A program made the translations under genes and the position numbers. From the IMG/VR virus record IMGVR_UViG_3300024262_002005, positions 1-20,940 of that record: DNA of 20,940 nt; one strand, given 5' to 3'. Below, piece by piece: positions 459 through 20,940 of the stretch. Position 1 is the stretch's first letter. Each line of letters begins with the position of its first letter. The notes beneath the pieces are model-generated. The model was not told where the DNA came from. It saw only the letters and a list, made by a program, of their open reading frames with translations, and did not search any database. Source of the stretch: a virus.

Positions 459-619
459 GCGTAAAAGGAACATGGCCCCGGCCATTCACAAACACACGAG
501 AGGAACGGGATCTCCGCAAAGAGCTTATGTATGGAGAGATTACCCTGGCGGAGTATAACAGACGATATAAACGCCTTCAGAAACGAGGGTTTATTAAGAG
601 AAATGGGAGGGTGATTTGA
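455..619 (+). CDS. Small basic hypothetical protein (54 aa)
   Basis: A 54-residue frame runs from an ATG overlapping the phosphoesterase stop (ATGA, 455-458) to a TGA that overlaps the polymerase start by four bases (TTGA). It fills the gap between the two genes exactly, which is the main reason to believe it. The product is Lys/Arg-rich, with charged N-terminal residues around TREERDLRKEL and a basic C-terminal half (YNRRYKRLQKRGFIKR), so a nucleic-acid contact is possible but not shown. No family is recognised. Translation may depend on coupling, as there is no strong Shine-Dalgarno close to its ATG. Confidence 0.6.
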   Translation: MSVKGTWPRPFTNTREERDLRKELMYGEITLAEYNRRYKRLQKRGFIKRNGRVI

Positions 620-2649
620 CCGTAACCGAAATACTAACGACAGCTAACTACCCAACCGACGTGCTTACATTAGACTTCGAGAGCTATTATGACCAGGACT
701 ACTCCCTCAAGAAATTATCCATCGTGGAGTACGTTACTGACTCCAGGTTTAGTCTGACCGGCTTAGGTATTAAGATTAACGACGGGACATCCGTATTCGT
801 GCCCGGTCCCCAGGTTCCGTGGGCCATCGAACGGCTTCAGAAGAAGTTCGGCGTCATGTTACACAATGTCGTTTGTGTAACAAAGAACAGCAAATTTGAT
901 ATACTAATTCTGGCAAACAAGTTCGGGATCTACCCGCCGTATAACATCGATATCGAAGACCTCAGTAGGTACTATGACTCCAGGATGAAGCACACATTGG
1001 CGGCTCTGGCTAAACTGTTCAAGCTCCAGGATAAGGGTGACACCAGCCAGTTCAAGGGTCAGCACTGTGCTGACATAGACTGGGTAGCCATGAAGAAATA
1101 CTGCCTGGGTGATGTCGATATTGAATCACAGTTGCTTGAGATACTACTGCCAATGATCGACAACCCAGAGGTGGAGCTACCGCTGATGAACCACACCCTG
1201 AACCTGTACCTGAAGCCGACGTTCGATCTGGATATGGAGATGGCTAAGGATATAGCGTTTGACATGGGTGTTGAACTCGGGAATGATCTGGAACAGATAC
1301 CCTGGATATTGGAGTATGCTACGAAGACCAAGAAAACTATGGAGCAAATTCTTCGAGCCAGGAGTATCTTCCCAAAGATCCTACAGGATGTCCTACCAGA
1401 GGGCGAGAAAGTGCCAATGAAACAGGGTAAGAAGAAGATGATCCCGGCCCTGGCTCAGGATGATGTCGCATTTCAGTTACTACTCACTCACTCGAATGAT
1501 AAGGTGCGGCTGTTGTGCAAGGCTAAGGCCGCGTGTACCAGTTGGCCATTGCATCAAGCAAAAATGCAGCATATAATTAAACAGGCTGAATGTTCGGACG
1601 GTAAGGCCAGAGTCGCTATGAAGTTCTATGGTGCTCACACCGGGCGATGGTCGGGCACACAGGGCACGAATATGCTTAATCTCGGTGGTAAGGGCAGGGG
1701 CAAAGCGATACACCCTTTAATTGGTAAGGTACGACATGCCCTACTTGCACCAGATGACCAGATGCTCGTGATACCAGATTCGTGCCAGATAGAGGCCAGA
1801 GAATTAGCCTGGATATCCGGGCAGAATGATTTAGTGAAAGGGTTTGCAGATGGACAAGATATTTACTCTGTTTTCGCTACTCGGCTTTTCGGTGAGGAGG
1901 TGCGAAAACCTACAGATGCTGACACCCCCGAAGCCGCAAAGATCCTTACGATACGAAGAGGTTTTGGGAAAGACGCTATTCTGGGGTGCGGATACGGAAT
2001 GGGGACCAACACTTTTTTTGATAGATGTAGGCAAAATGAATCCCTACGTCCCCTTTTCGACTCTGGTAAGTATGACTGGGATTTCATCGATAAACTCATT
2101 AAGACGTACCGGACAACGTATACTCAAATCCCTAAATTTTGGAAGGCTATGGAGTCCTGTTTCCGCTGGGTGACGAAGTATCCGCATGAGGTGATGACGT
2201 ACTACATCCCCACGGATGATACCTGTTTACATGAGGGCATGGAGAAGCAGAAGCCGCTTATCAAGAACGCTATACTAACTTTCTGGAAAGAGGGAACCAC
2301 GACGATCATCCAGTTACCGTCAGGCCGACGATTATTCTACCGCCAGGCTTCTGTTGAACCCAAGGGTAAGATTAATACTATTCATGGACCGCTCTGGGGT
2401 GGCAGCATCACGGAGAATGTCATCCAGAGTATCTGTCGTGACCTACTTGGTGGCTGGCTACTGGAATGTGAACGAGAACGAATACCGATCATACTCCACA
2501 CGTATGATGAACTTGTCGGGTGTGTGCCCGAACACCGGGCCGAAGAGAGCCTGGCGAAGATGATAGAAATTATGAGAACCGGCCCTGACTGGGCGGCTGG
2601 ATTACCGTTGGATGCAGAAGGGGGAACATCACCGTGTTTCAAAAAATAA
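616..2649 (+). CDS. Family A DNA polymerase with 3'-5' exonuclease domain
   Basis: Replicative DNA polymerase of the Pol I family, 677 aa, lacking the 5'-3' nuclease domain as is usual in phages. The proofreading domain shows ExoI D20-F-E22, ExoII N91xxFD95 and ExoIII Y162xxxD166. The polymerase domain shows HTGRWSG, motif A PDSCQIEARELA (D388, E393), motif B RRGFGKDAILGCGYG and motif C HTYDE (D631, E632). The residue matching E. coli Pol I position 762 is Leu456, and the motif C His is Tyr630. The start is TTG at 616, with GGGAGG at 605-610 upstream and a TTGA overlap with the preceding gene; no better in-frame start is seen. It should work with the downstream primase-helicase. Family assignment is very secure. 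Confidence 0.96.
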   Translation: MTVTEILTTANYPTDVLTLDFESYYDQDYSLKKLSIVEYVTDSRFSLTGLGIKINDGTSVFVPGPQVPWAIERLQKKFGVMLHNVVCVTKNSKFDILILANKFGIYPPYNIDIEDLSRYYDSRMKHTLAALAKLFKLQDKGDTSQFKGQHCADIDWVAMKKYCLGDVDIESQLLEILLPMIDNPEVELPLMNHTLNLYLKPTFDLDMEMAKDIAFDMGVELGNDLEQIPWILEYATKTKKTMEQILRARSIFPKILQDVLPEGEKVPMKQGKKKMIPALAQDDVAFQLLLTHSNDKVRLLCKAKAACTSWPLHQAKMQHIIKQAECSDGKARVAMKFYGAHTGRWSGTQGTNMLNLGGKGRGKAIHPLIGKVRHALLAPDDQMLVIPDSCQIEARELAWISGQNDLVKGFADGQDIYSVFATRLFGEEVRKPTDADTPEAAKILTIRRGFGKDAILGCGYGMGTNTFFDRCRQNESLRPLFDSGKYDWDFIDKLIKTYRTTYTQIPKFWKAMESCFRWVTKYPHEVMTYYIPTDDTCLHEGMEKQKPLIKNAILTFWKEGTTTIIQLPSGRRLFYRQASVEPKGKINTIHGPLWGGSITENVIQSICRDLLGGWLLECERERIPIILHTYDELVGCVPEHRAEESLAKMIEIMRTGPDWAAGLPLDAEGGTSPCFKK

Positions 2650-7418: not shown

Positions 7419-7494
7419 CCCCTAATGCGGGACCGCACGGTATACGGTTGAGGGGTGGATAAGCTCGGTTATCCGCAGCGATTACCCACCCCTC
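7419..7494 (+). promoter_or_regulatory. Structured leader with mutually exclusive stems before the primase-helicase
   Basis: In this untranslated gap, AGGGG (7451-7455) can pair upstream with CCCCT (7419-7423), enclosing a small TGCG/CGCA hairpin (7426-7437), or downstream as part of a 9-bp stem GAGGGGTGG (7450-7458) with CCACCCCTC (7486-7494). A third hairpin, GGATAA (7457-7462) with TTATCC (7469-7474), overlaps the left arm of the 9-bp stem. The 9-bp stem is followed by TGTATTTT. These look like alternative RNA or DNA folds, perhaps an attenuator or an origin element. No covariation data are available. Confidence 0.4.
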
Positions 7495-7514
7495 TGTATT
7501 TTCTGGAGACCAAG

Positions 7515-9791
7515 ATGAATTTCGCAGAAGACTTTGAAATCTACAAACAGAATATGTTCCCGGTCATGTACGATCACCTGGCCAGGGAACTCGGGGTCAA
7601 GGTCTCTTCTATCCAACAGTTAGGCGTCGGGTTCTACCCGGCGAAACAGTCGTGGGTATTCGCCGAGCGGGATTACAAGGGAGAGATCGTCGGTCTATCA
7701 TTACGATCTATGGATGGTAAAAAATTCATGGAACCGGGATCAAAGCGTGGATTGATCTACGCATACAATGAAAATAATTTAGAAGGGGAGGAACGCTATG
7801 CAGCCGGACAATATCACTGGGTGCGAGTGCAAGAAGTCGGTATTGAATGTCCTATTTGTGGAAAGCCAGACTGGTGTATGGTTAGCTCGGATAACCCGGA
7901 AGATCCTTCTGCGGTGCTCTGTTCTCGTATTGAAGAAGGATCAGTCAAATCTATTGGATCAGCCGGGTATCTTCATCTGCGAAAACATCAGCAGCGAGAC
8001 GATACGCTTGGGACAAGTGTGTTACACCTCTCAGATCTACCCATACCCATCGTTGAGGGTGCATCGGATGTACTTGCTGCCCTGGACCTCGGTCTTACGG
8101 CTATTGGTCGGCCTTCTGCTAAAGGGGGCATGGCAGAACTCAAGGAGATGCCACTCGCAGGAAAGACGATCTGGATCTTAGGGGAGAACGATGCCGGTGC
8201 CGGTAAAGCCGGGATGCAAAAGACTCTGGTAAATCTCGTACACCTGTCCAAGGATATCGTGTGCGTTATGCCACCAGAGGGTGTCAAGGATTTGCGACAA
8301 TGGACTAAGCTGCGGCTTACCATAGAATCGCTGACTGCGTATGTGACTAAGTATGGAGTAGTCAATGAAAAAGATCCCAATTTATTTGCTGACGACATCG
8401 CTCACACCATAGCCATTGCTTTCCTGGATCGATACCGGGATGACAACGGGGTACAAACTCTTAGGAGCTATCACGGCGAATGGGAAGAATGGTCTGAAGG
8501 TAGGTATAGACAGCTTGACACTGATGTTTTTAGAGGTAGATTTTACACGTTTCTCAAGGGAAAACGGTATATCAAACCCACTAAAGAGGGTGTCGATATA
8601 GTGGCATATAAGCCGACCAAAAGTAAGATCAATGATATAATAGACGCCTTAAGTAGCCACTGTCCGGTACCCTTTGATCCCCCTACGTGGATTTATCAAG
8701 GGGGCAGACCTGATACCAGGAACCTGATAGCGTTTAAGAACGGGCTTCTTGATGTGGATGAGTATTGCAGGACAGGTAAGGCAAAACTTCTGGACCCGAC
8801 ACCGGATCTGTTTACGCTCGCCACGTTACCCTATGACTATCTACCCTATGCCTGGTCTAAACTATTCGATGACTACTGCACGATGACGTTTAATAAAGAC
8901 GCTGACAGCATACGATTATTGGCCCAATGGTTTGGTTACAATCTTGTGTTCGACACCAGCCAAGAAAAATTTATGATGTTCATCGGACCGACACGCTCGG
9001 GTAAGAGTACGATCCTGTCGGCTATGGAAGCCATGCTCGGCCAGGAACAGTGCGGGTCAACAAGTCTACCCCTTCTGGCTAATTCTCATGGCCTCAGTTC
9101 CCTGATCGGTAAGGGGTCTGCAATAGCTGGTGACATGAAGGGGACCATCCGCAAGGCTGAAATGGACGCTGCACTTGAGGTCATACTCAGGATTACTGGC
9201 CGAGACCGGATACCGATCAATCCTAAATTCGTAGCTCCATTCGACGCAGAACTCGCGTGTAGATTTACGATGGCCATGAACGATCTGCCGATGTTTACCG
9301 ATCACTCCAGGGCTATCGTGGCTCGAACGCTCATATTAAATTTCCCCAACTCATACTATGGCCGGGAAGATTTCTCGCTCAAAAACAGATTACGTGAAGA
9401 GGCTATCAAGGGGAATCTGATAAACTTCGCCCTCTGGGGTTTGAAGGATCTCAGGGAACAGGGTAGGTTCGTAGAACCGGAAATATCAAAGGGCGTCATC
9501 GGTCAGTTTAAGGAACTGGTATCACCTATAACGTCCTTCATAGAAGAGTGCTGCACTACTGGAGCAGGATTGTACCTGGAGAAAAAACAACTGTACGACA
9601 CCTGGCGAGAATGGTGCCGGGATAACGACAGGAAACCAGGCAATAGACAAATGTTTCACAGGTGGCTGCTACAGCAGATGCCACAACTTGTGGTTGTAAC
9701 AAAGGGTCAGGGTGACGACACGCTACACCTATATAAGGATATAGCGTTGAAGCCCTGGGCCGCAATGAAATATCTTGGGAGGCCGATGTAA
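7515..9791 (+). CDS. TOPRIM primase / D5-like SF3 helicase
   Basis: 758-aa bifunctional replication protein. ATG 7515 is preferred over GTG 7455 because GGAG (7505-7508) lies 6 bases before it and 7455 falls inside the leader hairpin. Domain order: N-terminal primase core with a TOPRIM_N-like VGLSLRSMDG...KRGLIYA; an inserted zinc knuckle C112xxC115, C121, C136; TOPRIM with IVEG (E181) and GEND (E224, D226); then a D5-type SF3 helicase with Walker A GPTRSGKST (491-499), Walker B-like SAIAGDMKG and sensor FTMAMNDLP; finally a winged-helix end (YDTWREWCRDN). It should unwind the fork and prime DNA for the family A polymerase. ExD replaces the usual DxD of TOPRIM. Helicase assignment is secure, primase strong. 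Confidence 0.92.
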   Translation: MNFAEDFEIYKQNMFPVMYDHLARELGVKVSSIQQLGVGFYPAKQSWVFAERDYKGEIVGLSLRSMDGKKFMEPGSKRGLIYAYNENNLEGEERYAAGQYHWVRVQEVGIECPICGKPDWCMVSSDNPEDPSAVLCSRIEEGSVKSIGSAGYLHLRKHQQRDDTLGTSVLHLSDLPIPIVEGASDVLAALDLGLTAIGRPSAKGGMAELKEMPLAGKTIWILGENDAGAGKAGMQKTLVNLVHLSKDIVCVMPPEGVKDLRQWTKLRLTIESLTAYVTKYGVVNEKDPNLFADDIAHTIAIAFLDRYRDDNGVQTLRSYHGEWEEWSEGRYRQLDTDVFRGRFYTFLKGKRYIKPTKEGVDIVAYKPTKSKINDIIDALSSHCPVPFDPPTWIYQGGRPDTRNLIAFKNGLLDVDEYCRTGKAKLLDPTPDLFTLATLPYDYLPYAWSKLFDDYCTMTFNKDADSIRLLAQWFGYNLVFDTSQEKFMMFIGPTRSGKSTILSAMEAMLGQEQCGSTSLPLLANSHGLSSLIGKGSAIAGDMKGTIRKAEMDAALEVILRITGRDRIPINPKFVAPFDAELACRFTMAMNDLPMFTDHSRAIVARTLILNFPNSYYGREDFSLKNRLREEAIKGNLINFALWGLKDLREQGRFVEPEISKGVIGQFKELVSPITSFIEECCTTGAGLYLEKKQLYDTWREWCRDNDRKPGNRQMFHRWLLQQMPQLVVVTKGQGDDTLHLYKDIALKPWAAMKYLGRPM

Positions 9792-11932: not shown

Positions 11933-12135
11933 CATAATACAGTGACCAGAACCCCACTGATAACAGTGATGGACGTTAACAGAAGACCAAGAAATAACTT
12001 CCAGTGGCGTTCATCCTGTTTGCTGTGGTAATCAATGTGTCCATCCAGTTTATTCCTGATGGCTCTGACATCACCGATTAAGAAGATTATCAGTTCTCTG
12101 TCACTCATGTCGCCTAATCTTTTATCAACGTCCAT
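11929..12135 (-). CDS. Small membrane-anchored protein, holin/XhlA-like (68 aa)
   Basis: Last gene of the minus-strand virion cluster; its ATG at 12135 overlaps the stop of the 1300-aa gene (TAATG), with AGAAGGAGA upstream. Layout: acidic helical N-terminus (DKRLGDMSDREL), a charged coiled-coil-like middle (DVRAIRNKLDGHIDYH), then one C-terminal hydrophobic span (LFLGLLLTSITVISGVLVTV). This arrangement is that of XhlA-type haemolysin/holin accessory proteins and some C-tail-anchored holins. A lysis role fits the position at the end of the late genes, but no endolysin gene is visible next to it, so this remains a family-level guess. Confidence 0.62.
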   Translation of the reverse strand: MDVDKRLGDMSDRELIIFLIGDVRAIRNKLDGHIDYHSKQDERHWKLFLGLLLTSITVISGVLVTVLC

Positions 12136-15100
12136 TATCCGGGTCTCCTTCTAACTGGTGGTGTCACCCTTCTTCTGGTTGGTGCTTGACTCGTGGTAGC
12201 CTGTTCGTCTTTGAAAATTCCCTTGTTATAGAACAAGAGTTTTGTGAGATCGCCTTTGTTCTCCCAATAGGCTTCTATATCTTTCTTCGCCAGATAGCCG
12301 GGTATAAATGTTTTAATGGAACTTAACATCTTCCACTTAGCCTGATTCCTGGTTCTATCATCGTCTGTAACAATATATTGGTACAGGCCGATAAGTAATT
12401 GGGCGAGCGGGGGTAACGCGTCCGGTGCCGCCCCAAATAAATAGCTCGATCCATAACCAAGCGTATTGAGCACCAGACCACCTATCACCATATACCGACC
12501 CCATCCCACCCTTCTACTCCAGGGGAGTTTCAACCCCTCTCTCGTTTCGCCGGTGAAGAACCTATGTGCCGCTTCACGGTGGAACTTAAAGAAATGATTC
12601 ATCCACCAACTTTGTAGCCTGGTAACTGGTGTGGCCGATTTGTACTTGAACACTCCAGGCATGGCCATAGGGATATAATGATACTCGGAACAACCTGGAC
12701 CAAAATCCATTTCAGCACGTAATTTTTTCTCCTCACTTGGATATAGAAACTCATGTTCCTCGGTATAAGTTCGTTTAGGATCAGCCCAACCTAAGTCTTT
12801 ATGTTTAGGGTCTTCGATGAGTTCAAGAATATCATAGTAAGCCGCCTTCATGGCCGTTTCAGCGTTACTTACTGCCGACCACTGGAAGCCCTTCATCCAT
12901 CCACGACCGAATATGCCCTTACCACGCTCTGACAGATCTTCAAATCCCTGGTCCCGATAGGTCTCGAAGAACAGACTTTCAGAGATAAATTTTTTACATT
13001 GTTCACTGACTGGTAATGCCGCCCTAAGATTAGATTTAGTAGTATAAAAAGCTAAATTCTGGAGAAGCTGAAACTTATTCCTGATAATTTGTTTAGGTCG
13101 TAACCCCATTACCCCGTAAATCTGTAGCCGTCCAAGTTTGCCCAGCATGTTGGTGAATGGTCTATTACTTATCTTCCTGCCAAATGGTTTCAGGACTTTA
13201 TTAACTACTGTTCCGATCCCAGAATCCTTTATCATTTCGTTTAAGCGTTTATCAGTATTGGTCTGTTTACCCACAACCATGTGGTTTATAAAGTTTTCAG
13301 TCCATCGACGGGTAGAGTCGGGGATAAGATCAGAGTGTAGTGCCATCTGAATTTCAAAAAACTTCAGCGGCTTGTCCAGGTGTATTTCTTTCAGTCCTGT
13401 ATACACCATCGCTTTAGTAGCTTTGATTAAATCATTTGAGAATATTGGTGCGAGTTCGTCACCAAGTTTACGTTGATACTCCATAGTATTACTAATTCTT
13501 TTGGGTGCGTTCTTTTCGGCCCAATATTTTAATTCTTCGGGCATCGGGTGTCTTCCGTCTATGATATCCTCAACCATAGTATCTACGATGTGCCTCATGT
13601 ATCCAGTCTTATACGCAATGGGTTCCATGCCAAGTTCTTCTCTTACCGCGTTCTCTCTGGCGAGGATAGTTCTGCTAAGGTTACGGAAATAATTAAACAC
13701 AGCCCTTTCGTCTTTAGATAAATCGGAAGGTGCCTCTTCGTTCTCATTAAGGAGATCGGCGAACCTGGCGACAGACTTAGTAGGTTTATTCTTTAACTTA
13801 GCTATCGCCTTTGTCTTTATCGTCTCCCCGCCTAAGCGTTCGATAATTCGTTTCATCACATCGAGACGTTTAGACATCTTAGCGACTTCAAGATCAAATC
13901 TCTGCTTGCCTATTGCGGCTGGTGACACCATAAACTCTACACCAAGGATCTTAGTCTTGTAGAGTTGCGGCGTTAGACCTATGATGGGCTTCTTAAATCT
14001 ACGCTCTGATGGGAGTATCCCGGTATCAATCTTTTTTTCTTTGGCTAATTTATGTAAGTCATCAATATAATCCTGGGCCTCAAGGGGGGACATCTTGGCC
14101 ATAGATGTCTTACCAGTTGACTTTTTCATAAACGCTCGGCGTTCTTTTTCAGACATCCCGAGAGCTTTAGGGATTTCATGCCCGGCTGCATATTGCGATT
14201 TTATTGGTTTGCTCTTTTGCTTCCCTACTTTTGTTTTATCTTCCGCCGTTTCCCAATCAAGTAAGGCGTCAAGGTTGTTCTTGTGTTCTCCTAAGAATCT
14301 AAACTCTCGCCGTTCATCTACGGTACGTTTAGTAGTTTCTATGCTACCTAATTCCTGGTGGCGGGTTTCCGCAGCAGTAAGTCGTTCAGCTACTTCCTCA
14401 CTATCAAGCCCATACTGCCGACCTATCTTTTCGTTGGGAGTCTCTGCCGCTTGTTCAGGAGCGGCGGGAGTTTCTGCGATAGGTTCAGCAGCCGCAAGTT
14501 CTTTTTGTTGTTCTCTCCATGCGATTTCTTGAACATATTGTTTATGATATGGTGACGCCCGCTGTACTCTTTTTGCAAGCTCATTATCTGAAAGTTCAGA
14601 TAGTGGTTTCTTCAGCATCTGTGGTGTTTCAGGACGTTCTATTATTTCTGTGGTCGCTTCGGCGGGGGTTTCACTCATAGGTGCGTCCAGTCTCCCACTA
14701 ACACTGTGTTCAAAATCTTGTGTTACTTCTATGTCAGTGCCCTTAACGAATAGACGTGAGTTCCCTTCTTCATCCTTCCTTTCTTCTGTCACTTGGGTTG
14801 CTTTGTCCCCCATTTGTGCAGGAGTCTCTATGTAAGTGTTGCCATCATCACCTTTGTAGACATTGGAACCTGGGGGGATGTCTTGCGTAACCTCAACCCC
14901 TTCTTTACCAAGAATCGGGGGTTGTTCCCTGGCAACGTCAGTCTGCTGGCCAGTAGCCAATCTACCAGCCCCGCCAAGTACCGGACCGGCCACGGCACCA
15001 CCCAGAGCAGCCCCACCCAGGCGTTCACCTATCGCCAGCCAGTCTGGTGAACCATCTTCCTTGGTCGGGTACTCGCCCCGGAACGCAGCCGGAACACTGA

Positions 15101-16037
15101 GCGATACACCTTCCTGGCCAAACTCTTCCAGGGCTTCTTCAATCGATAGCCGGGCGATCTCGCCAGACCAGCCCTTGAGTTCCTTGCCAGCGGTCTTCAT
15201 CCCCTTCTTTCGGGCCACCTTAATGAAACTCTTGAGTGAATGTTTACCGCCCTCTGCGAACTTTAGAACCCGGCCCACCTGTAGTGCCTCTACAATAGCA
15301 TTTAACGATCCGACCACCACACGCTCTCGCTGGGCCTGTTCCAAGAGGTCGGGTCTGGCCTCTACCTGGTCTCGTGTGAGCTTGTGCGTCTTCATTAGCG
15401 AGGAGATAGCGTCGTCGTAGGCGTAATCCCCCTCTACCATGAATCCCACGCCAAACGCTCCAGCAGGACCGAAAGCAGCCCCGGCTACGGCAGCATTAGC
15501 CATATACGGCACAGCCTCGGATATCGTTCTGGTGGTCCAGGCCAGGGCACCTGAATATTGAGGTGCGAATTTCTCCTGGGCAGACATTATCTTACGCTTG
15601 GCTTCTTTGATCCCCTTGGTGGACTCGATCTGTTCCTCACGTGTAGGCAGTGATGGTGCCCAGGGTGTTCCCACCTTACGTACCTTTTCAGATGAGATAT
15701 TCAGGGCAGCGTCTACCGTGCCCACTACGCCCTTAGCCACACCAAGTTCTGCACTGACGAGACCTCGACCGACGATACCCGGAACGTCTCGTACTCTGGC
15801 CTTTGGTAGTCCAGATTCTGTCCCGAATGAGCTACCGCCCAGATCAGTATAGCCTCCGCCGAACATGCCCTGACCACCAGTAACTTTACCCACGGTTGGA
15901 AATTCCACCCCGAATTTAGAGGCAAACTCTTCAAACGGTACATCCGAGTAATTTTTGGCGTGCAACTTCGTCGCCAGATCCATATCAGAGATATCATTAT
16001 AACCTGGATACTGCTGTCTGAATTGTTTTATATCCAT
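12135..16037 (-). CDS. Large internal virion/ejection protein (1300 aa, T7 gp16-like by position and size)
   Basis: The 1300 residues begin with a short domain seen in large phage virion proteins (FRQQYPGYNDISD, then KNYSDVPFEEFASKFG). Gly/Ala-rich hydrophobic stretches at about 174-200 (AVPYMANAAVAGAAFG) and 336-361 (GGAALGGAVAGP) could insert in membranes. The middle is charged and helical, the C-terminal third holds a well-ordered region (GYMRHIVDTMVED, GVMGLRPKQIIRN) and a hydrophobic span near 1183-1205, and the tail is Arg-rich (PTRRRVTPPVRRRPG). Length and order after two smaller genes match T7 gp14-gp15-gp16, proteins that form the ejection conduit. I see no clear lytic transglycosylase motif. 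The function is inferred from synteny and layout. Confidence 0.72.
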   Translation of the reverse strand: MDIKQFRQQYPGYNDISDMDLATKLHAKNYSDVPFEEFASKFGVEFPTVGKVTGGQGMFGGGYTDLGGSSFGTESGLPKARVRDVPGIVGRGLVSAELGVAKGVVGTVDAALNISSEKVRKVGTPWAPSLPTREEQIESTKGIKEAKRKIMSAQEKFAPQYSGALAWTTRTISEAVPYMANAAVAGAAFGPAGAFGVGFMVEGDYAYDDAISSLMKTHKLTRDQVEARPDLLEQAQRERVVVGSLNAIVEALQVGRVLKFAEGGKHSLKSFIKVARKKGMKTAGKELKGWSGEIARLSIEEALEEFGQEGVSLSVPAAFRGEYPTKEDGSPDWLAIGERLGGAALGGAVAGPVLGGAGRLATGQQTDVAREQPPILGKEGVEVTQDIPPGSNVYKGDDGNTYIETPAQMGDKATQVTEERKDEEGNSRLFVKGTDIEVTQDFEHSVSGRLDAPMSETPAEATTEIIERPETPQMLKKPLSELSDNELAKRVQRASPYHKQYVQEIAWREQQKELAAAEPIAETPAAPEQAAETPNEKIGRQYGLDSEEVAERLTAAETRHQELGSIETTKRTVDERREFRFLGEHKNNLDALLDWETAEDKTKVGKQKSKPIKSQYAAGHEIPKALGMSEKERRAFMKKSTGKTSMAKMSPLEAQDYIDDLHKLAKEKKIDTGILPSERRFKKPIIGLTPQLYKTKILGVEFMVSPAAIGKQRFDLEVAKMSKRLDVMKRIIERLGGETIKTKAIAKLKNKPTKSVARFADLLNENEEAPSDLSKDERAVFNYFRNLSRTILARENAVREELGMEPIAYKTGYMRHIVDTMVEDIIDGRHPMPEELKYWAEKNAPKRISNTMEYQRKLGDELAPIFSNDLIKATKAMVYTGLKEIHLDKPLKFFEIQMALHSDLIPDSTRRWTENFINHMVVGKQTNTDKRLNEMIKDSGIGTVVNKVLKPFGRKISNRPFTNMLGKLGRLQIYGVMGLRPKQIIRNKFQLLQNLAFYTTKSNLRAALPVSEQCKKFISESLFFETYRDQGFEDLSERGKGIFGRGWMKGFQWSAVSNAETAMKAAYYDILELIEDPKHKDLGWADPKRTYTEEHEFLYPSEEKKLRAEMDFGPGCSEYHYIPMAMPGVFKYKSATPVTRLQSWWMNHFFKFHREAAHRFFTGETREGLKLPWSRRVGWGRYMVIGGLVLNTLGYGSSYLFGAAPDALPPLAQLLIGLYQYIVTDDDRTRNQAKWKMLSSIKTFIPGYLAKKDIEAYWENKGDLTKLLFYNKGIFKDEQATTSQAPTRRRVTPPVRRRPG

Positions 16038-16868: not shown

Positions 16869-17690
16869 TTAGAATCCTGTCGCTTTATTGCCGAGTTTTT
16901 GGTTTAGTGCCGTCAGTTCTGAACTGGACCATGTTTGAGGTTTGGCGGTAGTAGTAGGAGCAGCAGAAGAAAATAAACTTGGGGCAGATGTAGGCACCTT
17001 AAAATTACTACCAGTAGGGGCAACCTGTTTCTTAGCGTTCATCTTAGCGTTTAACTCGGCATATCCAAGGCCAAGTTGTCCTGCCGCCTGTTGCTGCCCG
17101 GCCTGTAACCCGGCGTAACCAAGGCCGAGTTGTCCTGCCGCTTGTTGCTGCCCGGCCCTTAGTCCAGCATAGCCGAGACCAAGTTGATTAGACTGTCCCT
17201 GTGCTTGTAAATCAGCCATATACTTCTGCATCGCCTGGCTTTGGCTGAACTGTTGCGAACTCTGATCCATACCTTGAGTAAATTGCGAAGCACTCTGTTG
17301 GGCACCACCCATAGCCATATTAAGAGCGGCCAGGTTCTGTGCCCTGGTGCTCTCCACTCCCGCTCGCGTTGGTGCGGCTACTTCTTCTTCGTACTTCTTC
17401 CCGAGACCAGCGGCCATCGTTGTACCAGCAAGACCTGAACCAATAAGGGCGTTCATACCTGATGCCATAGACTGTGTTCTACCGCGGTCTAACCCAGCCT
17501 CTACACCCGCACCATATCCGCCACCGGGTTGATAGTATTTCATGGCCTCTTGGAATGGTTTAGACACTTCAGCTTTTTGTCTGGCGATCTTAACGTCAGT
17601 GGGTTCGGGGGCCGATGTCCACGAACTGAAGTCTGGATTCTTCCAATGCTCTTTAACTTCCCCGGTAAATCTATTCTTCCAATAAGCCAT
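16869..17690 (-). CDS. Putative internal virion protein with GLGYAGL repeats (273 aa, T7 gp14-like position)
   Basis: ATG 17690 overlaps the stop of the propeller-like gene (TAATG). The N-terminus is Trp-rich (KNRFTGEVKEHWKNPDFSSW), followed by Gly/Ala-rich helical segments (LIGSGLAGTTMAAGLGKKY, NLAALNMAMGGAQQSAS), a Gln/Ser-rich stretch, and near residues 168-212 an 18-residue tandem repeat (QLGLGYAGLQAGQQQAAG) in about 2.5 copies. Such amphipathic, Gly/Ala-rich small proteins directly after the nozzle gene are typical of the membrane-inserting ejection protein (T7 gp14, P22 gp7 class). No enzymatic motif; the function is inferred. Confidence 0.65.
   Translation of the reverse strand: MAYWKNRFTGEVKEHWKNPDFSSWTSAPEPTDVKIARQKAEVSKPFQEAMKYYQPGGGYGAGVEAGLDRGRTQSMASGMNALIGSGLAGTTMAAGLGKKYEEEVAAPTRAGVESTRAQNLAALNMAMGGAQQSASQFTQGMDQSSQQFSQSQAMQKYMADLQAQGQSNQLGLGYAGLRAGQQQAAGQLGLGYAGLQAGQQQAAGQLGLGYAELNAKMNAKKQVAPTGSNFKVPTSAPSLFSSAAPTTTAKPQTWSSSELTALNQKLGNKATGF
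17051..17186 (-). repeat. 54-bp tandem repeat within coding sequence (~2.5 copies)
   Basis: Two adjacent 54-bp units (17065-17118 and 17119-17172) are near-identical, with partial copies on both sides. Each encodes 18 residues of the form QLGLGYAGLxAGQQQAAG. The 54-bp length keeps the frame. The near identity of the full units at the DNA level suggests recent duplication. Confidence 0.9.
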
Positions 17691-19255
17691 TATTTAATCC
17701 TGCCTTTCCCAGATACATTGACAACCAACTGGTCGAAACTCATGGTCTCGTCAGCCGTAATATTTTCTAATCTAATAACTGCGAACGCCCCGCGTATCTT
17801 CTGTTTCTTCCTCTGTCCCCTGGGATTACCTGGTGCCGTAAACGTACCCGATACCCTGGGGGCGGTATTGGCCTTGGCCTTCTCTATCGCTTCGGACGCA
17901 GTACGCCCTATGAATACTTTATATCCGATATCGTCCGAATCTGTTTCTGTACCGGCAGCACCACCACCAGAAGAGGTTAACGACATCGAGTAAATAGCCC
18001 CCTCTTTGCCATCCGATGCCAGAGCGAATGGCCCGAATGTGGCGTAACTGTTAATAGCTTCGTCCGTACCACCTATATCATCGCTACTTTTGTCAGGATC
18101 GAATTTCCTGATGTAGCCATCTTTACAGCCTACCAACAGATCCCTATAATCTGGATCATTAGCCGCGTAAAAATGCGTAGAGTAGACACCACATTCCTCG
18201 GGATAAGACTCAGGGAAAAACGCATATCTTTGCACTTCTGAATCCCCGAATGTCACTGGACTAAGGCTTATAAAGTAATTGGAGTTAGTCCCATCAGCTA
18301 ATAGGGTTATACAGGTTACGATACCATGTCTCTTACGATCATACCCCATAGTTATACGGTGCGTGGTAGGATTTACTGCCTCATCGTCTACCAGGTTGGG
18401 TAGATTAATCTCCGTTAGAAGTTCAGCGGTTGTGTTACTTTTACTTATTTTATACACCCCACCAGCACCCCAGAAATATAGGTTATCATCCTCATCGAAA
18501 CACCAACTCCTCGCCCCGAATATTCCAGTAGTCTCATCAATCGCACTCAGAGAACCACCCTCGGCAGGATCGCCGTACATAACCCACATAGTCGTAGCAC
18601 ACCCGAAGATAAGGTACTCTCTGCCTCTCGGTATGAGTGCACGGATTATGTCACCAACTTCACCCGGAACGTTGGCGTTCTCGCCGCCAGCCACAGGTGA
18701 ACCACCGTCATTGGCAGCGTAAAGGTAGTCCCACGGATTTCCGTTTCTGGATTTATACCATTGATTGGGGCTATTAGGGTTGCCAGAGAGATAGATTGAC
18801 CCCCTGTATGTACAGCCGAGGTATGCCTTAGCCGGTAACGACCCCGACGCTCCGCCAGGATACACTGTATAATCGTACCAGAGCGGTGTGGTTGAGGCCT
18901 CGGCGACAGCAGATGGCACTCTCGTCTCTGGGTCCATGCCTCCGCCAGATAGTGTGTAACCAGCAGTAGTAACAAATGTACCACTGGTAGTGTAACCATA
19001 GATCATTGTTTTGGCAGTATTAACAAAGTCAACGATCATAGTAGCCCCGGAGGTTGCCTGTGTCACTATAGACCCCTTGGTGGGGGCTGTGGTAAGTGCT
19101 GTTACTGTCAACTTGGTGTTTATAAAATCTACGACCCTTAGGTTGGCACCGTTGATAATAAATATCTTCTGATAAGCCTCGAACATAACGAGTTGATCAG
19201 AGGTATCGATATCATCTACCGAAGCCGCTAACGCTACCATTGTTCCTGCTGCCAT
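17690..19255 (-). CDS. Beta-propeller-like tail protein, candidate nozzle / tail tubular protein B (521 aa)
   Basis: 521 residues, beta-rich, with blade-like repeats of short strands: AYQKIFIINGANLRVVDF, TYRGSIYLSGNPN then QWYKSRNGNPWDYLY, REYLIFGCATTMWVMYGD, DDNLYFWGAGGVYKISKS, DLLVGCKDGYIRKFDPD. Strings of the form 'G.iYlSgnp..pnqw..S..gnpwdy' recur in podovirus nozzle/tail-tube proteins (T7 gp12 and P22 gp10 class), which form a beta-propeller around the exit channel. Its ATG (19255) overlaps the stop of the gene before, and GAGGA at 19262-19266 is the ribosome site. The three genes that follow look like ejection proteins, which supports the assignment. The fold is inferred from strand patterns. 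Confidence 0.68.
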   Translation of the reverse strand: MAAGTMVALAASVDDIDTSDQLVMFEAYQKIFIINGANLRVVDFINTKLTVTALTTAPTKGSIVTQATSGATMIVDFVNTAKTMIYGYTTSGTFVTTAGYTLSGGGMDPETRVPSAVAEASTTPLWYDYTVYPGGASGSLPAKAYLGCTYRGSIYLSGNPNSPNQWYKSRNGNPWDYLYAANDGGSPVAGGENANVPGEVGDIIRALIPRGREYLIFGCATTMWVMYGDPAEGGSLSAIDETTGIFGARSWCFDEDDNLYFWGAGGVYKISKSNTTAELLTEINLPNLVDDEAVNPTTHRITMGYDRKRHGIVTCITLLADGTNSNYFISLSPVTFGDSEVQRYAFFPESYPEECGVYSTHFYAANDPDYRDLLVGCKDGYIRKFDPDKSSDDIGGTDEAINSYATFGPFALASDGKEGAIYSMSLTSSGGGAAGTETDSDDIGYKVFIGRTASEAIEKAKANTAPRVSGTFTAPGNPRGQRKKQKIRGAFAVIRLENITADETMSFDQLVVNVSGKGRIK

Positions 19256-19965
19256 TATATGTCCTCATAATAAAATTGGTCACTTCCAACAGCCACCAAT
19301 CGTGTATAGTTAACACTATCTACGATACGAACGGATACGGAACCAAGGTTCCCTGACATAGCCCCCACCCCAGCTATTGTCCCAGATAATTCACTAATTG
19401 AAAGTACTTCTAAATTTCCAGATGGTGTTCCTGTTCCTGCTATAGTTCCTGATAGTTCTGAGTATGTTGTACCTACTCCCCCGATTGCGTAAATTGCTGT
19501 ATTTACCCCTAAAACTCCTGAGCTAACCCAGGGATTAGTTAATGTCGTAGAAGATGTTTTATATGATGTAGTGCTATCGCCTACAGTATTAATATTAATA
19601 TTTGTTTGTGTGCTGGTATTATCAAGTTGAACAGCTAACCAATAGATAGTTTCAGGAGTAACTTCCCAATTAACCTCTACACTCTTCCATCCCGCATCTG
19701 TGCCTTTTGCATTAGTGTTAGATACATATAATCTATTTGTAGGAAGTCCAGTAACAGCATAATTTTCATATAAACCTACCTCAAAATTAGAAGCCTCTGT
19801 CGCAGTATCACACCACCAACCAATTTCAGTAATAGTGGTTATTCCTTCTGGTACGACAACCTTAAACGCATAAGATATTGCGTCCACTACTGAGTTATCT
19901 CCTTCGGGGTCTGCCACAGGGGCGACTGTTACAAAACCACAATTTGTCCCTATTACAACAGCCAT
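19255..19965 (-). CDS. Beta-rich virion protein with SGTIAG repeats (236 aa)
   Basis: ATG 19965 lies one base after the previous stop (TAATATG). The first ~165 residues look like a beta-sandwich of the kind in phage appendage or carbohydrate-binding proteins (ITEIGWWCDTATEASNFEVG, ETIYWLAVQLDNT, VNTAIYAIGGVG). Then come two copies of SELSGTIAG(T/V)G, each followed by SGNL, a repeat common in phage tail proteins, and a C-terminal motif RLVAVGSDQFYYEDI that recurs in the upstream Fn3-repeat protein. A virion surface or tail-adaptor role is likely; the exact role is unknown. Confidence 0.66.
   Translation of the reverse strand: MAVVIGTNCGFVTVAPVADPEGDNSVVDAISYAFKVVVPEGITTITEIGWWCDTATEASNFEVGLYENYAVTGLPTNRLYVSNTNAKGTDAGWKSVEVNWEVTPETIYWLAVQLDNTSTQTNININTVGDSTTSYKTSSTTLTNPWVSSGVLGVNTAIYAIGGVGTTYSELSGTIAGTGTPSGNLEVLSISELSGTIAGVGAMSGNLGSVSVRIVDSVNYTRLVAVGSDQFYYEDI
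19258..19302 (-). other. C-terminal motif copy A (RLVAVGSDQFYYEDI)
   Basis: The last 15 codons of the SGTIAG-repeat gene. The same pattern, RLVA......F-aromatic-YE-acid-aliphatic, ends the Fn3-repeat protein (20352-20396). The GAG GA of the Glu-Asp codons (19262-19266) also serves as ribosome site for the propeller-like gene. Confidence 0.65.
19346..19460 (-). repeat. Two coding repeats, SELSGTIAG...SGNL
   Basis: Two ~48-bp units, about 66 bp apart, encode SELSGTIAGTGTPSGNL and SELSGTIAGVGAMSGNL. The protein copies are closely similar while the DNA differs at many third positions, so the repeat is older and held by selection on the protein. Confidence 0.8.
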
Positions 19966-19966
19966 A

Positions 19967-20347
19967 TTATGTTAGAGTTACGTTTAACTCCCCCGCTGCA
20001 AATCTTGGAGTAATCCCCGCTGTTATAGCTCTTGAGTCACCGAGAGCAGCAGAACAAAGCATATTACCAGCAGTAATAGCATCGAATAGGGCGAAGTGTG
20101 TTACTGTCCCCCAGGCACCAGCAGCCTCTGGAAACTCTACAGCGGCATCATTGTCAATTTCGTTGGCGGCTCTGCTCCACGCAGCACACGCCACCCTTAC
20201 ATAGGTGTCTCCAGGTTCTGCTAAACCAGAAGCATCATCAAGGGGATCTGCCGTCGATAGTCCTACGTACATTGTAGGAGCGGCATAGGAACCGATATCA
20301 AATAGGTGGTCAAGTATCTCGCCTTCCCAAAAATCACTAAAACTCAT
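19967..20347 (-). CDS. Phage tail-associated protein (126 aa)
   Basis: Start chosen at ATG 20347 (MSFSDFWEGEILDHLF) because GAGGAG (20355-20360) lies 7 bases upstream; the ATG at 20362 overlaps that site and the previous gene. The protein follows a pattern common in phage structural genes: YVGLSTADPLDDASG, GLAEPGDTYVR, a Phe-Pro (VEFPEA) and WGTVTHFALFDA...GNMLCSAAL. These small proteins are generally found beside tail or fibre genes and are thought to be minor virion parts. No enzyme motif. Family resemblance is from memory of the motif; the role is inferred. Confidence 0.7.
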   Translation of the reverse strand: MSFSDFWEGEILDHLFDIGSYAAPTMYVGLSTADPLDDASGLAEPGDTYVRVACAAWSRAANEIDNDAAVEFPEAAGAWGTVTHFALFDAITAGNMLCSAALGDSRAITAGITPRFAAGELNVTLT

Positions 20348-20348
20348 A

Positions 20349-20940
20349 TTATAACTCCTCATACCAGAATTTATTTTCTGCGGCTGCTACTAATCTTCTA
20401 AGCGTCACCAGGTTATTCTCTCCCGTGTATCTCCAATCCGTACCTTCGACGCCGGGTTCGTCTTCAAAATCAGGGGCCGTACCATACGGTCCGGCACCAC
20501 TACCCCCGTCTATTAAAGTATAGGATATCATAATCTGATTAAAGTTTATGGTGGTAAATGACCACTCATCACCCTCTGTGACACCGATTTCGTTTATTGA
20601 GTCTATTCTCCAATAGCGTGTTACGGCATAATCATACGGAGAACCCAGGGTGATTCCAGCTATGGTTAAAGACAGTTCTTCTTGCCCCATAGATGGTGAT
20701 GTCAAGTCCCCTGATGTATCTCCATAATATATGTTATAAGAAGTAGAATTACCACCATCTACCCACGTCATTGCGGCCTGGTCTAATGTAACATCATCTG
20801 CCGCATCTGTAGGGGCAGGAGTAGTGGCTTTTGCTGGCCGGGCATCAAAATTCCATTCGTCACCCTCTGTCGTCCCGGCGTCATTCGTAGCATCTACCCG
20901 CCAATAAATTTTTTGGTTTATTGGACTCGCACCAAAGATA
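20349..20940 (-). CDS. Fibronectin type III-like repeat virion protein, truncated by window edge
   Basis: Open on the minus strand to the window end, so the ATG at 20771 is internal and the N-terminus is missing; 196 residues are visible. Two repeats 97 residues apart carry YWRVDATNDAGTTEGDEW and YWRIDSINEIGVTEGDEW, the final strands of Fn3-like domains. Between them are strand-rich segments (TSYNIYYGD, LSLTIAGITLGSPYDY). The end is RLVAAAENKFWYEEL, the motif shared with the SGTIAG-repeat gene. Fn3-like domains are common on phage tails and capsids and may bind cell-surface glycans. It is the first visible gene of the minus-strand cluster; upstream virion genes (portal, capsid, terminase) are expected beyond the edge. 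Confidence 0.78.
   Translation of the reverse strand, partial: IFGASPINQKIYWRVDATNDAGTTEGDEWNFDARPAKATTPAPTDAADDVTLDQAAMTWVDGGNSTSYNIYYGDTSGDLTSPSMGQEELSLTIAGITLGSPYDYAVTRYWRIDSINEIGVTEGDEWSFTTINFNQIMISYTLIDGGSGAGPYGTAPDFEDEPGVEGTDWRYTGENNLVTLRRLVAAAENKFWYEEL
20352..20396 (-). other. C-terminal motif copy B (RLVAAAENKFWYEEL)
   Basis: The last 15 codons of the Fn3-repeat gene. Matches copy A at seven of 15 positions (R, L, V, A, F, Y, E), with conservative changes at most of the others. The GAG GAG of its two Glu codons (20355-20360) is the ribosome site of the next gene. Confidence 0.65.
20556..20906 (-). repeat. Two Fn3-type coding repeats (97-residue period)
   Basis: The 20-codon blocks at 20847-20906 and 20556-20615 encode closely matching sequences (13 of 20 residues identical), 291 bp apart. 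They mark the ends of successive Fn3-like domains; more copies may lie beyond the window edge. Confidence 0.75.

Follow-up and report, generated by a model that had tools for sequence, protein, structure and literature searches.

Our analysis suggests, with a probability of roughly two in three, that the short C-terminus shared by two viral proteins is the N-terminal beta-hairpin of a podophage tail nozzle, reused as a plug, and that adhesins dock by this hairpin in trans. For docking on the nozzle, natural gene fusions and AlphaFold models provided moderate support. The sequence analyzed, referred to here as the window, is the whole 20,940-nt stretch of the IMG/VR record IMGVR_UViG_3300024262_002005. 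The first-pass annotation of the window had noted that a protein with SGTIAG repeats (Y) and a protein with Fn3-like repeats (X) end in a common 15-residue motif, and this observation was found to be right and general. Both proteins end as described, Y with RLVAVGSDQFYYEDI and X with RLVAAAENKFWYEEL (Table 1). The two 15-mers are identical at 7 of 15 positions and have a BLOSUM62 score of 43, a value that was reached by 0 of 200,000 shuffles of both sequences, which rules out chance similarity. Two copies of the motif at homologous places were detected in nearly every relative, far above chance. The interpretation offered with the observation was partly supported.

The window locus and the 521-aa nozzle protein

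The genes concerned lie on the minus strand of the window in the order X, gp80-type fiber gene, Y and 521-aa nozzle. The GAGGA within the Y tag codons is located 6 nt ahead of the nozzle ATG at 19255, which coincides with the position of an internal GTG in relatives, while the GAGGAG within the X tag codons is located 7 nt ahead of the ATG at 20347. The fiber gene (query 19967-20362) matched PF23140 with 116.9 bits against a curated cut-off of 27, which places it in that family, and matched PDB 8jou_a with an E-value of 4e-6. Its start is likely the ATG at 20347 (126 aa) and not the listed ORF start at 20362, since the latter overlaps the Shine-Dalgarno sequence. The protein encoded immediately downstream of the nozzle is possibly an ejection or tail protein, and a 1300-aa protein is encoded where a large internal virion protein would be expected. 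The replication genes are on the strand opposite to the tail genes.

Table 1. Features of the window, with strand and basis or remark
Feature	Position	Strand	Basis or remark
Family A DNA polymerase and DUF5906/Pox_D5-type primase-helicase	616..2649 and 7455..9791	+	Replication genes
1300-aa protein	12135..16037	-	Weak GemA-like stretch and phrog_286 match
273-aa protein	16869..17690	-	Imperfect QLGLGYAGLQAGQQQAAG repeat; no family match
521-aa tail nozzle (predicted), short hairpin-less form	17690..19255	-	Foldseek of a homologue's model; 70-row family alignment
Y protein ('SGTIAG protein')	19255..19965	-	ORF; N-terminal domain, repeat linker and C-terminal hairpin tag
Y tag, nozzle-type hairpin	19258..19302	-	Gly at position 6
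Shine-Dalgarno GAGGA within Y tag codons	19262..19266	-	Serves nozzle start 19255
SGTIAG repeat linker of Y	19335..19461	-	Equivalent region in L001 has pLDDT <50
GP4 gp80-type fiber gene	19967..20347	-	Pfam PF23140, PDB 8jou_a
X protein, Fn3-like repeats and C-terminal hairpin tag	20349..20939	-	Runs off window end, incomplete
X tag, X subfamily	20352..20396	-	Ala at position 6
Shine-Dalgarno GAGGAG within X tag codons	20355..20360	-	Serves gp80-type gene

A sequence search with the 521-aa protein identified 39 relatives in viral contigs at 40-62% identity, and a profile search extended the set to 80 loci and two MAG contigs, giving a total of 79 distinct loci. The two MAG contigs (L113 and L114) are labelled Neptuniibacter and Candidatus Aegiribacteria; the binning may be wrong, and the labels do not establish hosts. 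Among cultured phages, no relative of the nozzle was found at useful significance, the sole matches being 36 residues shared with Streptomyces phages in the CBM_5_12 module region of L102, a stretch with a weak likeness to Streptomyces phage minor tail proteins. Similarly, no cultured-phage relatives of the SGTIAG protein were found. A profile search of the PDB sequences with the nozzle gave 0 hits, and no PDB sequence match was found for the hairpin; the nozzle assignment thus rests on the fold. We used the AlphaFold model of L005, the first row of the 70-row alignment (pLDDT 85, pTM 0.76). The top nine PDB matches of this model in Foldseek were all podophage tail chains, with E-values of 3e-9 to 4e-13 and TM values of 0.36-0.52 by query length, from SU10, Pa223, Pan3, LME-1, A4, VP1, GP4 and Carin1. 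BFVD viral models named P22 Gp10 DNA-stabilising also matched the nozzle model, and phrog_376 ('tail protein') matched 25 of 70 members of the nozzle family (best 1e-7). Its predicted fold identifies the 521-aa protein as a podophage tail nozzle, which we assumed to form a hexamer. The nozzles of SU10 and T7 likewise have no sequence homology with each other (PMC9509320). An alignment of the nozzles also revealed an extra tandem copy of a segment of ~50 residues (...LTQATSGATMIVDFTNTAKTATYGYVTSGTF...) in L022, L029, L030/L046, L024/L109 and L021/L106; the segment possibly resembles an FCCH domain, a name given by one of the BFVD hits.

Three states of the hairpin and the internal start of the nozzle gene

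The two C-termini are copies of a single hairpin module of ~14 residues, which was found in three states. The 79 distinct loci comprised 33 of type A, 21 of type B, 20 of type C (window included) and 5 that were unclassified, so that 74 were classifiable; two loci were reassigned after reading. In type A the hairpin forms the N-terminus of the nozzle, which begins M-A-V-x-[LI]-T-D-x-x-x-Y-K-RLVAAGNDxIYYED-LDVAAGTM. Type B loci encode an upstream adhesin-like domain, the hairpin and the nozzle in one ORF, mostly of 680-870 aa. In type C the hairpin is the C-terminus of the protein encoded by the preceding gene, and the nozzle starts with MAAGTM or similar. Types A and C are divided at the same residue, with YYEDLDVAAGTM in A corresponding to YYEDI-stop-MAAGTM in C, and the border codons are GAG GAT TTA GAC GTG in A and GAG GAC ATA TAA ATG or ATA TAATG in C. 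The split is made by an in-frame stop in L001, L011, L040 and L114, and by a TAATG overlap in the window, L003, L013 and L034. Programmed frameshifting at the TAATG junction was rejected because there is no slippery sequence and the stop is in frame in the first four loci, and sequencing error as the source of the splits was ruled out by the 20 type C loci across many clades.

The second copy (X) ends the next upstream protein in every type A locus and in every type C locus except two (L013 and L079, where the upstream sequence is too short); the X tag of L080 had a low score and was recognised by reading. At least 21 state changes are needed on the 70-row maximum-likelihood tree of nozzle cores, indicating recurrent switching among the three types, and sister pairs that differ in state include L003/L005, L074/L080, L002/L059 and L053/L056. 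Three hairpin copies were present in L022 (3687-5528), L108 (5232-6040) and L078 (4775-5822), as two tagged proteins in series together with the hairpin of the nozzle, which shows that stacking of tagged adhesins is possible.

A search for the motif had been proposed, and we ran it as a DNA pattern over 2.9 million viral contigs. Twenty stretches matched. In each of them the motif was 1-2 residues from the stop or was the nozzle hairpin itself, and never at a random internal position. The nozzle gene adjoined the motif in 19 of the 20 matches, the twentieth (L121) being a cut piece of a contig seen as L086; thus the DNA pattern detected no tag outside the nozzle loci in these contigs.

At the border between hairpin and nozzle, the codon was a start codon in 33 of 33 type A loci (31 GTG and 2 ATG). 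The valines of the aligned border column were encoded by GTG in 24 of 24 cases, as against 6 of 32 and 9 of 30 at two other conserved valine positions of these genes, taken as controls, and 20% for all valines. The mean Shine-Dalgarno energy ahead of the type A border was -6.4 kcal/mol, and 97% of the sites were at or below -5 kcal/mol. The corresponding means were -5.9 kcal/mol for type C starts, -3.8 kcal/mol for the long-form start of type A, -2.3 kcal/mol for type B borders and -2.2 kcal/mol for random sites. GAG was used in 28 of 31 type A loci versus 41% of all Glu codons. When the YED codons and their GAGGA were changed, the Shine-Dalgarno sequence was rebuilt in neighboring codons (L039, L048, L054, L058 and L069). 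A conserved in-frame start codon with a ribosome site, as expected of a dual-start gene, thus occurs in every type A locus and not in the controls. A start that is in use would be expected to show such a conserved codon with a rebuilt Shine-Dalgarno sequence, so the internal start is likely used, and a hairpin-less nozzle is probably made in type A as in type C. The first-pass annotation had proposed that tag and ribosome site are interlocked. The overlap is real, the GAGGA lying in the YED codons, but the two are separable: type B retains the peptide without the Shine-Dalgarno sequence, and the five loci above retain the Shine-Dalgarno sequence with changed YED codons.

We compared the internal start with the presence of a separate tagged protein in the 52 loci on the tree that have the hairpin in frame. 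Both were present in 33 loci and neither in 19, with 0 mixed cases. Each character changed 9 times on the tree, and 8 of 8 independent pairs agreed (sign test p=0.008). When whole records were scanned by profile, those of type B (up to 51 kb) gave no second tag; the number of hairpins per record was one in type B and, as a rule, two or three in types A and C. L056, which alone among type B loci combines an internal start with sufficient sequence upstream, has a tagged X protein too. A nozzle lacking the hairpin is therefore encoded only alongside another protein that can supply it.

Proposed docking of the hairpin and competing explanations

The domains ahead of the tag in separate X and Y proteins were found to have homologues among the domains that are joined to the nozzle in type B fusions. 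The Y protein of L071 matched the L056 fusion at 62% over 157 aa (full length), the X proteins of L048 and L086 matched the L102 fusion at 44% and 39%, respectively, and the X protein of L002 matched the L064 fusion at 32% over 317 aa; 80 of 95 modules fell in one similarity cluster. The same adhesin-like domain is therefore joined covalently via the hairpin in some phages and has a free hairpin C-terminus in others. The domains that could be named were mostly carbohydrate-binding types, with Laminin_G_3 over the cut-off in L022 and L034 (7e-17 and 2e-18) and sub-cut-off matches to CBM_4_9, DUF4082 and Lectin_like in L071, L077 and L001. No curated lectin or CBM domain was found by Pfam in the window proteins. 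We infer from these sequences that the tagged proteins may act as carbohydrate-binding adhesins. A second N-terminal domain family of ~300 aa, with a weak beta-propeller match in L064, is likewise fused to the nozzle in L064 and L104 (type B) or tagged for it in the X protein of L002, and is perhaps also present in L097.

In the AlphaFold model of L005, the hairpin folds with the nozzle (strands 15-18 and 21-25). For the split form we used L001, which belongs to the window's own well-supported clade (4 rows, 100/99), and modeled a read-through chain of Y, tag, one residue for the stop and nozzle; this chain is artificially continuous and its alignment includes natural fusions, so that it serves as a single-chain proxy. 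The model had a well-folded beta-sandwich (3-159) and, where the repeat linker lies, a linker with pLDDT <50 (162-213); the hairpin that precedes the nozzle was folded (222-232, block pLDDT 89). Such a model agrees with a flexibly tethered adhesin that ends in a structured plug, and the SGTIAG linker of Y is probably flexible. An exchanged strand completing the 521-aa neighbor had been suggested as one role of the tag, and this part of the earlier interpretation is supported by types A and B, in which the hairpin is, respectively, the N-terminus of the nozzle and covalently fused to the nozzle, and by the AlphaFold models. The part completed may be a propeller blade or the platform domain. The element that would complete the nozzle is thus found in cis in homologues of types A and B, and a partner lacking it is found in the 20 type C loci, where the nozzle starts past the hairpin, and at the internal start of type A.

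The reading of the two C-termini as one tag needs correction, because the tags form two separable subfamilies. X tags mostly have Ala at position 6 where nozzle hairpins and Y tags have Gly, and differ by Lys at position 9. Leave-one-out sorting placed 53 of 54 X tags and 29 of 32 type A nozzle hairpins correctly, and 52 of 54 and 19 of 20 when X tags were sorted against Y tags; Y tags and nozzle hairpins were hardly separable. By sequence, the Y tag is the nozzle's own hairpin moved onto another chain, whereas X tags look like a paralogue of it. Of the two tags, only that of the SGTIAG protein is the nozzle's own displaced hairpin.

In the mechanism that we favor, ribosomes would start at the border between hairpin and nozzle and produce a hairpin-less nozzle, the sole form in the window, a step for which the support is good. 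The C-terminal tag of the adhesin would then supply the missing hairpin in trans and fix the adhesin to the nozzle via its flexible linker. In the window, the nozzle-type hairpin of Y would most likely fill the nozzle's own socket, and the paralogous hairpin of X would dock in the same socket of other subunits, or at a related site. Type A genes retain the long form too, so that a fraction of the nozzle would already possess a hairpin, which speaks against docking in trans. A broader version, which we advance tentatively and at somewhat less than even odds, is a plug-in system in which different adhesins, all with a nozzle-type hairpin at the end, complete internally initiated, hairpin-less nozzle subunits in trans. 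The tail would then bear a mixture of adhesins at a ratio set by the two start sites, and new adhesins would be acquired in evolution by gaining the 14-residue C-terminal hairpin.

The subfamily difference is the main weakness of the single-socket model, since a single shared socket does not require it, and X tags may as a distinct subfamily use a different site. An arrangement with two sites, in which the nozzle-type hairpin is part of the nozzle and the X tag docks at a different, related site, is unlikely in our judgement but deserves serious attention. The second site might, for example, be a position edge-on beside the nozzle hairpin or, as the adaptor is 12-fold and the nozzle 6-fold, the other of the two adaptor subunits beneath each nozzle, and such an arrangement would agree with the separateness of the X tags, with the poor separation of Y and nozzle hairpins in sorting, and with the SU10 platform domain, which contacts two adjacent adaptors (PMC9509320). 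However, it leaves unexplained why the hairpin-less start is kept exactly when an X protein exists, and X-like hairpins that are nevertheless fused to the nozzle occur in some type B loci (L060 and L090). Pairing of the X tag with the nozzle or Y hairpin, giving a heterodimer that joins the adhesins to the nozzle, would account for the two copies, one per subfamily, in almost all A and C loci; it is made improbable by 19 type B loci that have one hairpin and no partner on the fetched contigs.

Two further explanations dispense with docking. Neutral fusion and fission of neighboring tail genes, with the hairpin as a linker remnant, would fit the frequent changes of architecture and the location of the hairpin at a domain border, but we give it very little credence: the C-terminal motif is conserved over deep divergence and in this locus only, the internal start is tied to tagged partners with no exception, and the hairpin is predicted to be folded. 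The faintest prospect of all is that the peptide likeness is mainly a by-product of the translation signal, the YED codons holding GAGGA for the next gene. Most loci do have GAGGA within these codons, and the preference for GAG noted above points the same way. On the other hand, conservation extends to the first nine residues (RLVAAGNxx), which lie outside the signal, type B retains the peptide with neither signal nor start, and the Shine-Dalgarno sequence is rebuilt elsewhere when YED is changed; a peptide serving the ribosome site alone is contradicted by the type B loci and the relocated Shine-Dalgarno sequences.

Relation to known systems

The proposed exchange works like donor-strand complementation in chaperone-usher pili, in which an incomplete beta fold is completed by the terminal strand of another subunit; there is no homology, a hairpin replaces the single strand, and the exchange is here proposed from sequence and model. 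Phage genes with in-frame internal starts, such as T7 4A/4B, lambda S and lambda C/Nu3, also give long and short forms in one frame, but in the present case what is missing from the short form is precisely the module found on other proteins. To our knowledge, podophage nozzles have been described as single-form proteins. Those of T7 (gp12), P22 (gp10), SU10 (gp17), GP4 and VP1 share the predicted beta-propeller fold with the proteins described here and have no sequence match to them; the detachable N-terminal hairpin and the conserved internal start are features of this group.

Descriptions of phage adhesins usually have them attached to the tail through anchor domains at their N-termini. The gp80-type protein of the window belongs to the family of the fiber I protein gp80 of Ralstonia phage GP4 (PF23140; PDB 8JOU chain a) and, unlike X and Y, carries no tag. 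Of the 20 type C loci, 13 have its gene between the two tagged ones, so that the order in the window (X, gp80, Y, nozzle) is the standard one; it is upstream in 2 more type C loci in which the X tag was unscored, and between tags in 1 type A locus only (L022, with three tags). In SU10, the short tail fiber is held by a fiber-dock loop of the nozzle and clamped by fiber residues 23-25 (PMC9509320). That fiber is likewise fixed directly to the nozzle by a short peptide element at blade 1, but there the nozzle offers a loop, whereas here the C-terminus of the adhesin copies the nozzle's own hairpin. Phage receptor-binding proteins carry variable receptor-binding domains on a conserved N-terminal anchor (PMC12692247). 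The tagged proteins similarly combine variable domains with a conserved putative anchor; in place of an N-terminal domain, they have a hairpin of 14 residues at the C-terminus, with homology to a part of the proposed partner. In the literature searched, we found no precedent for proteins anchored to a phage nozzle by a strand or hairpin at their C-terminus.

Taken from a tail protein, a very short C-terminal module thus appears to anchor adhesins and to pass between binding domains that are not related to each other. The finding that the internal start occurs together with a tagged partner provides a clear, falsifiable prediction for this uncultured group of short-tailed phages, and the loci illustrate that gene fusion and fission can make part of one protein an anchor for others.
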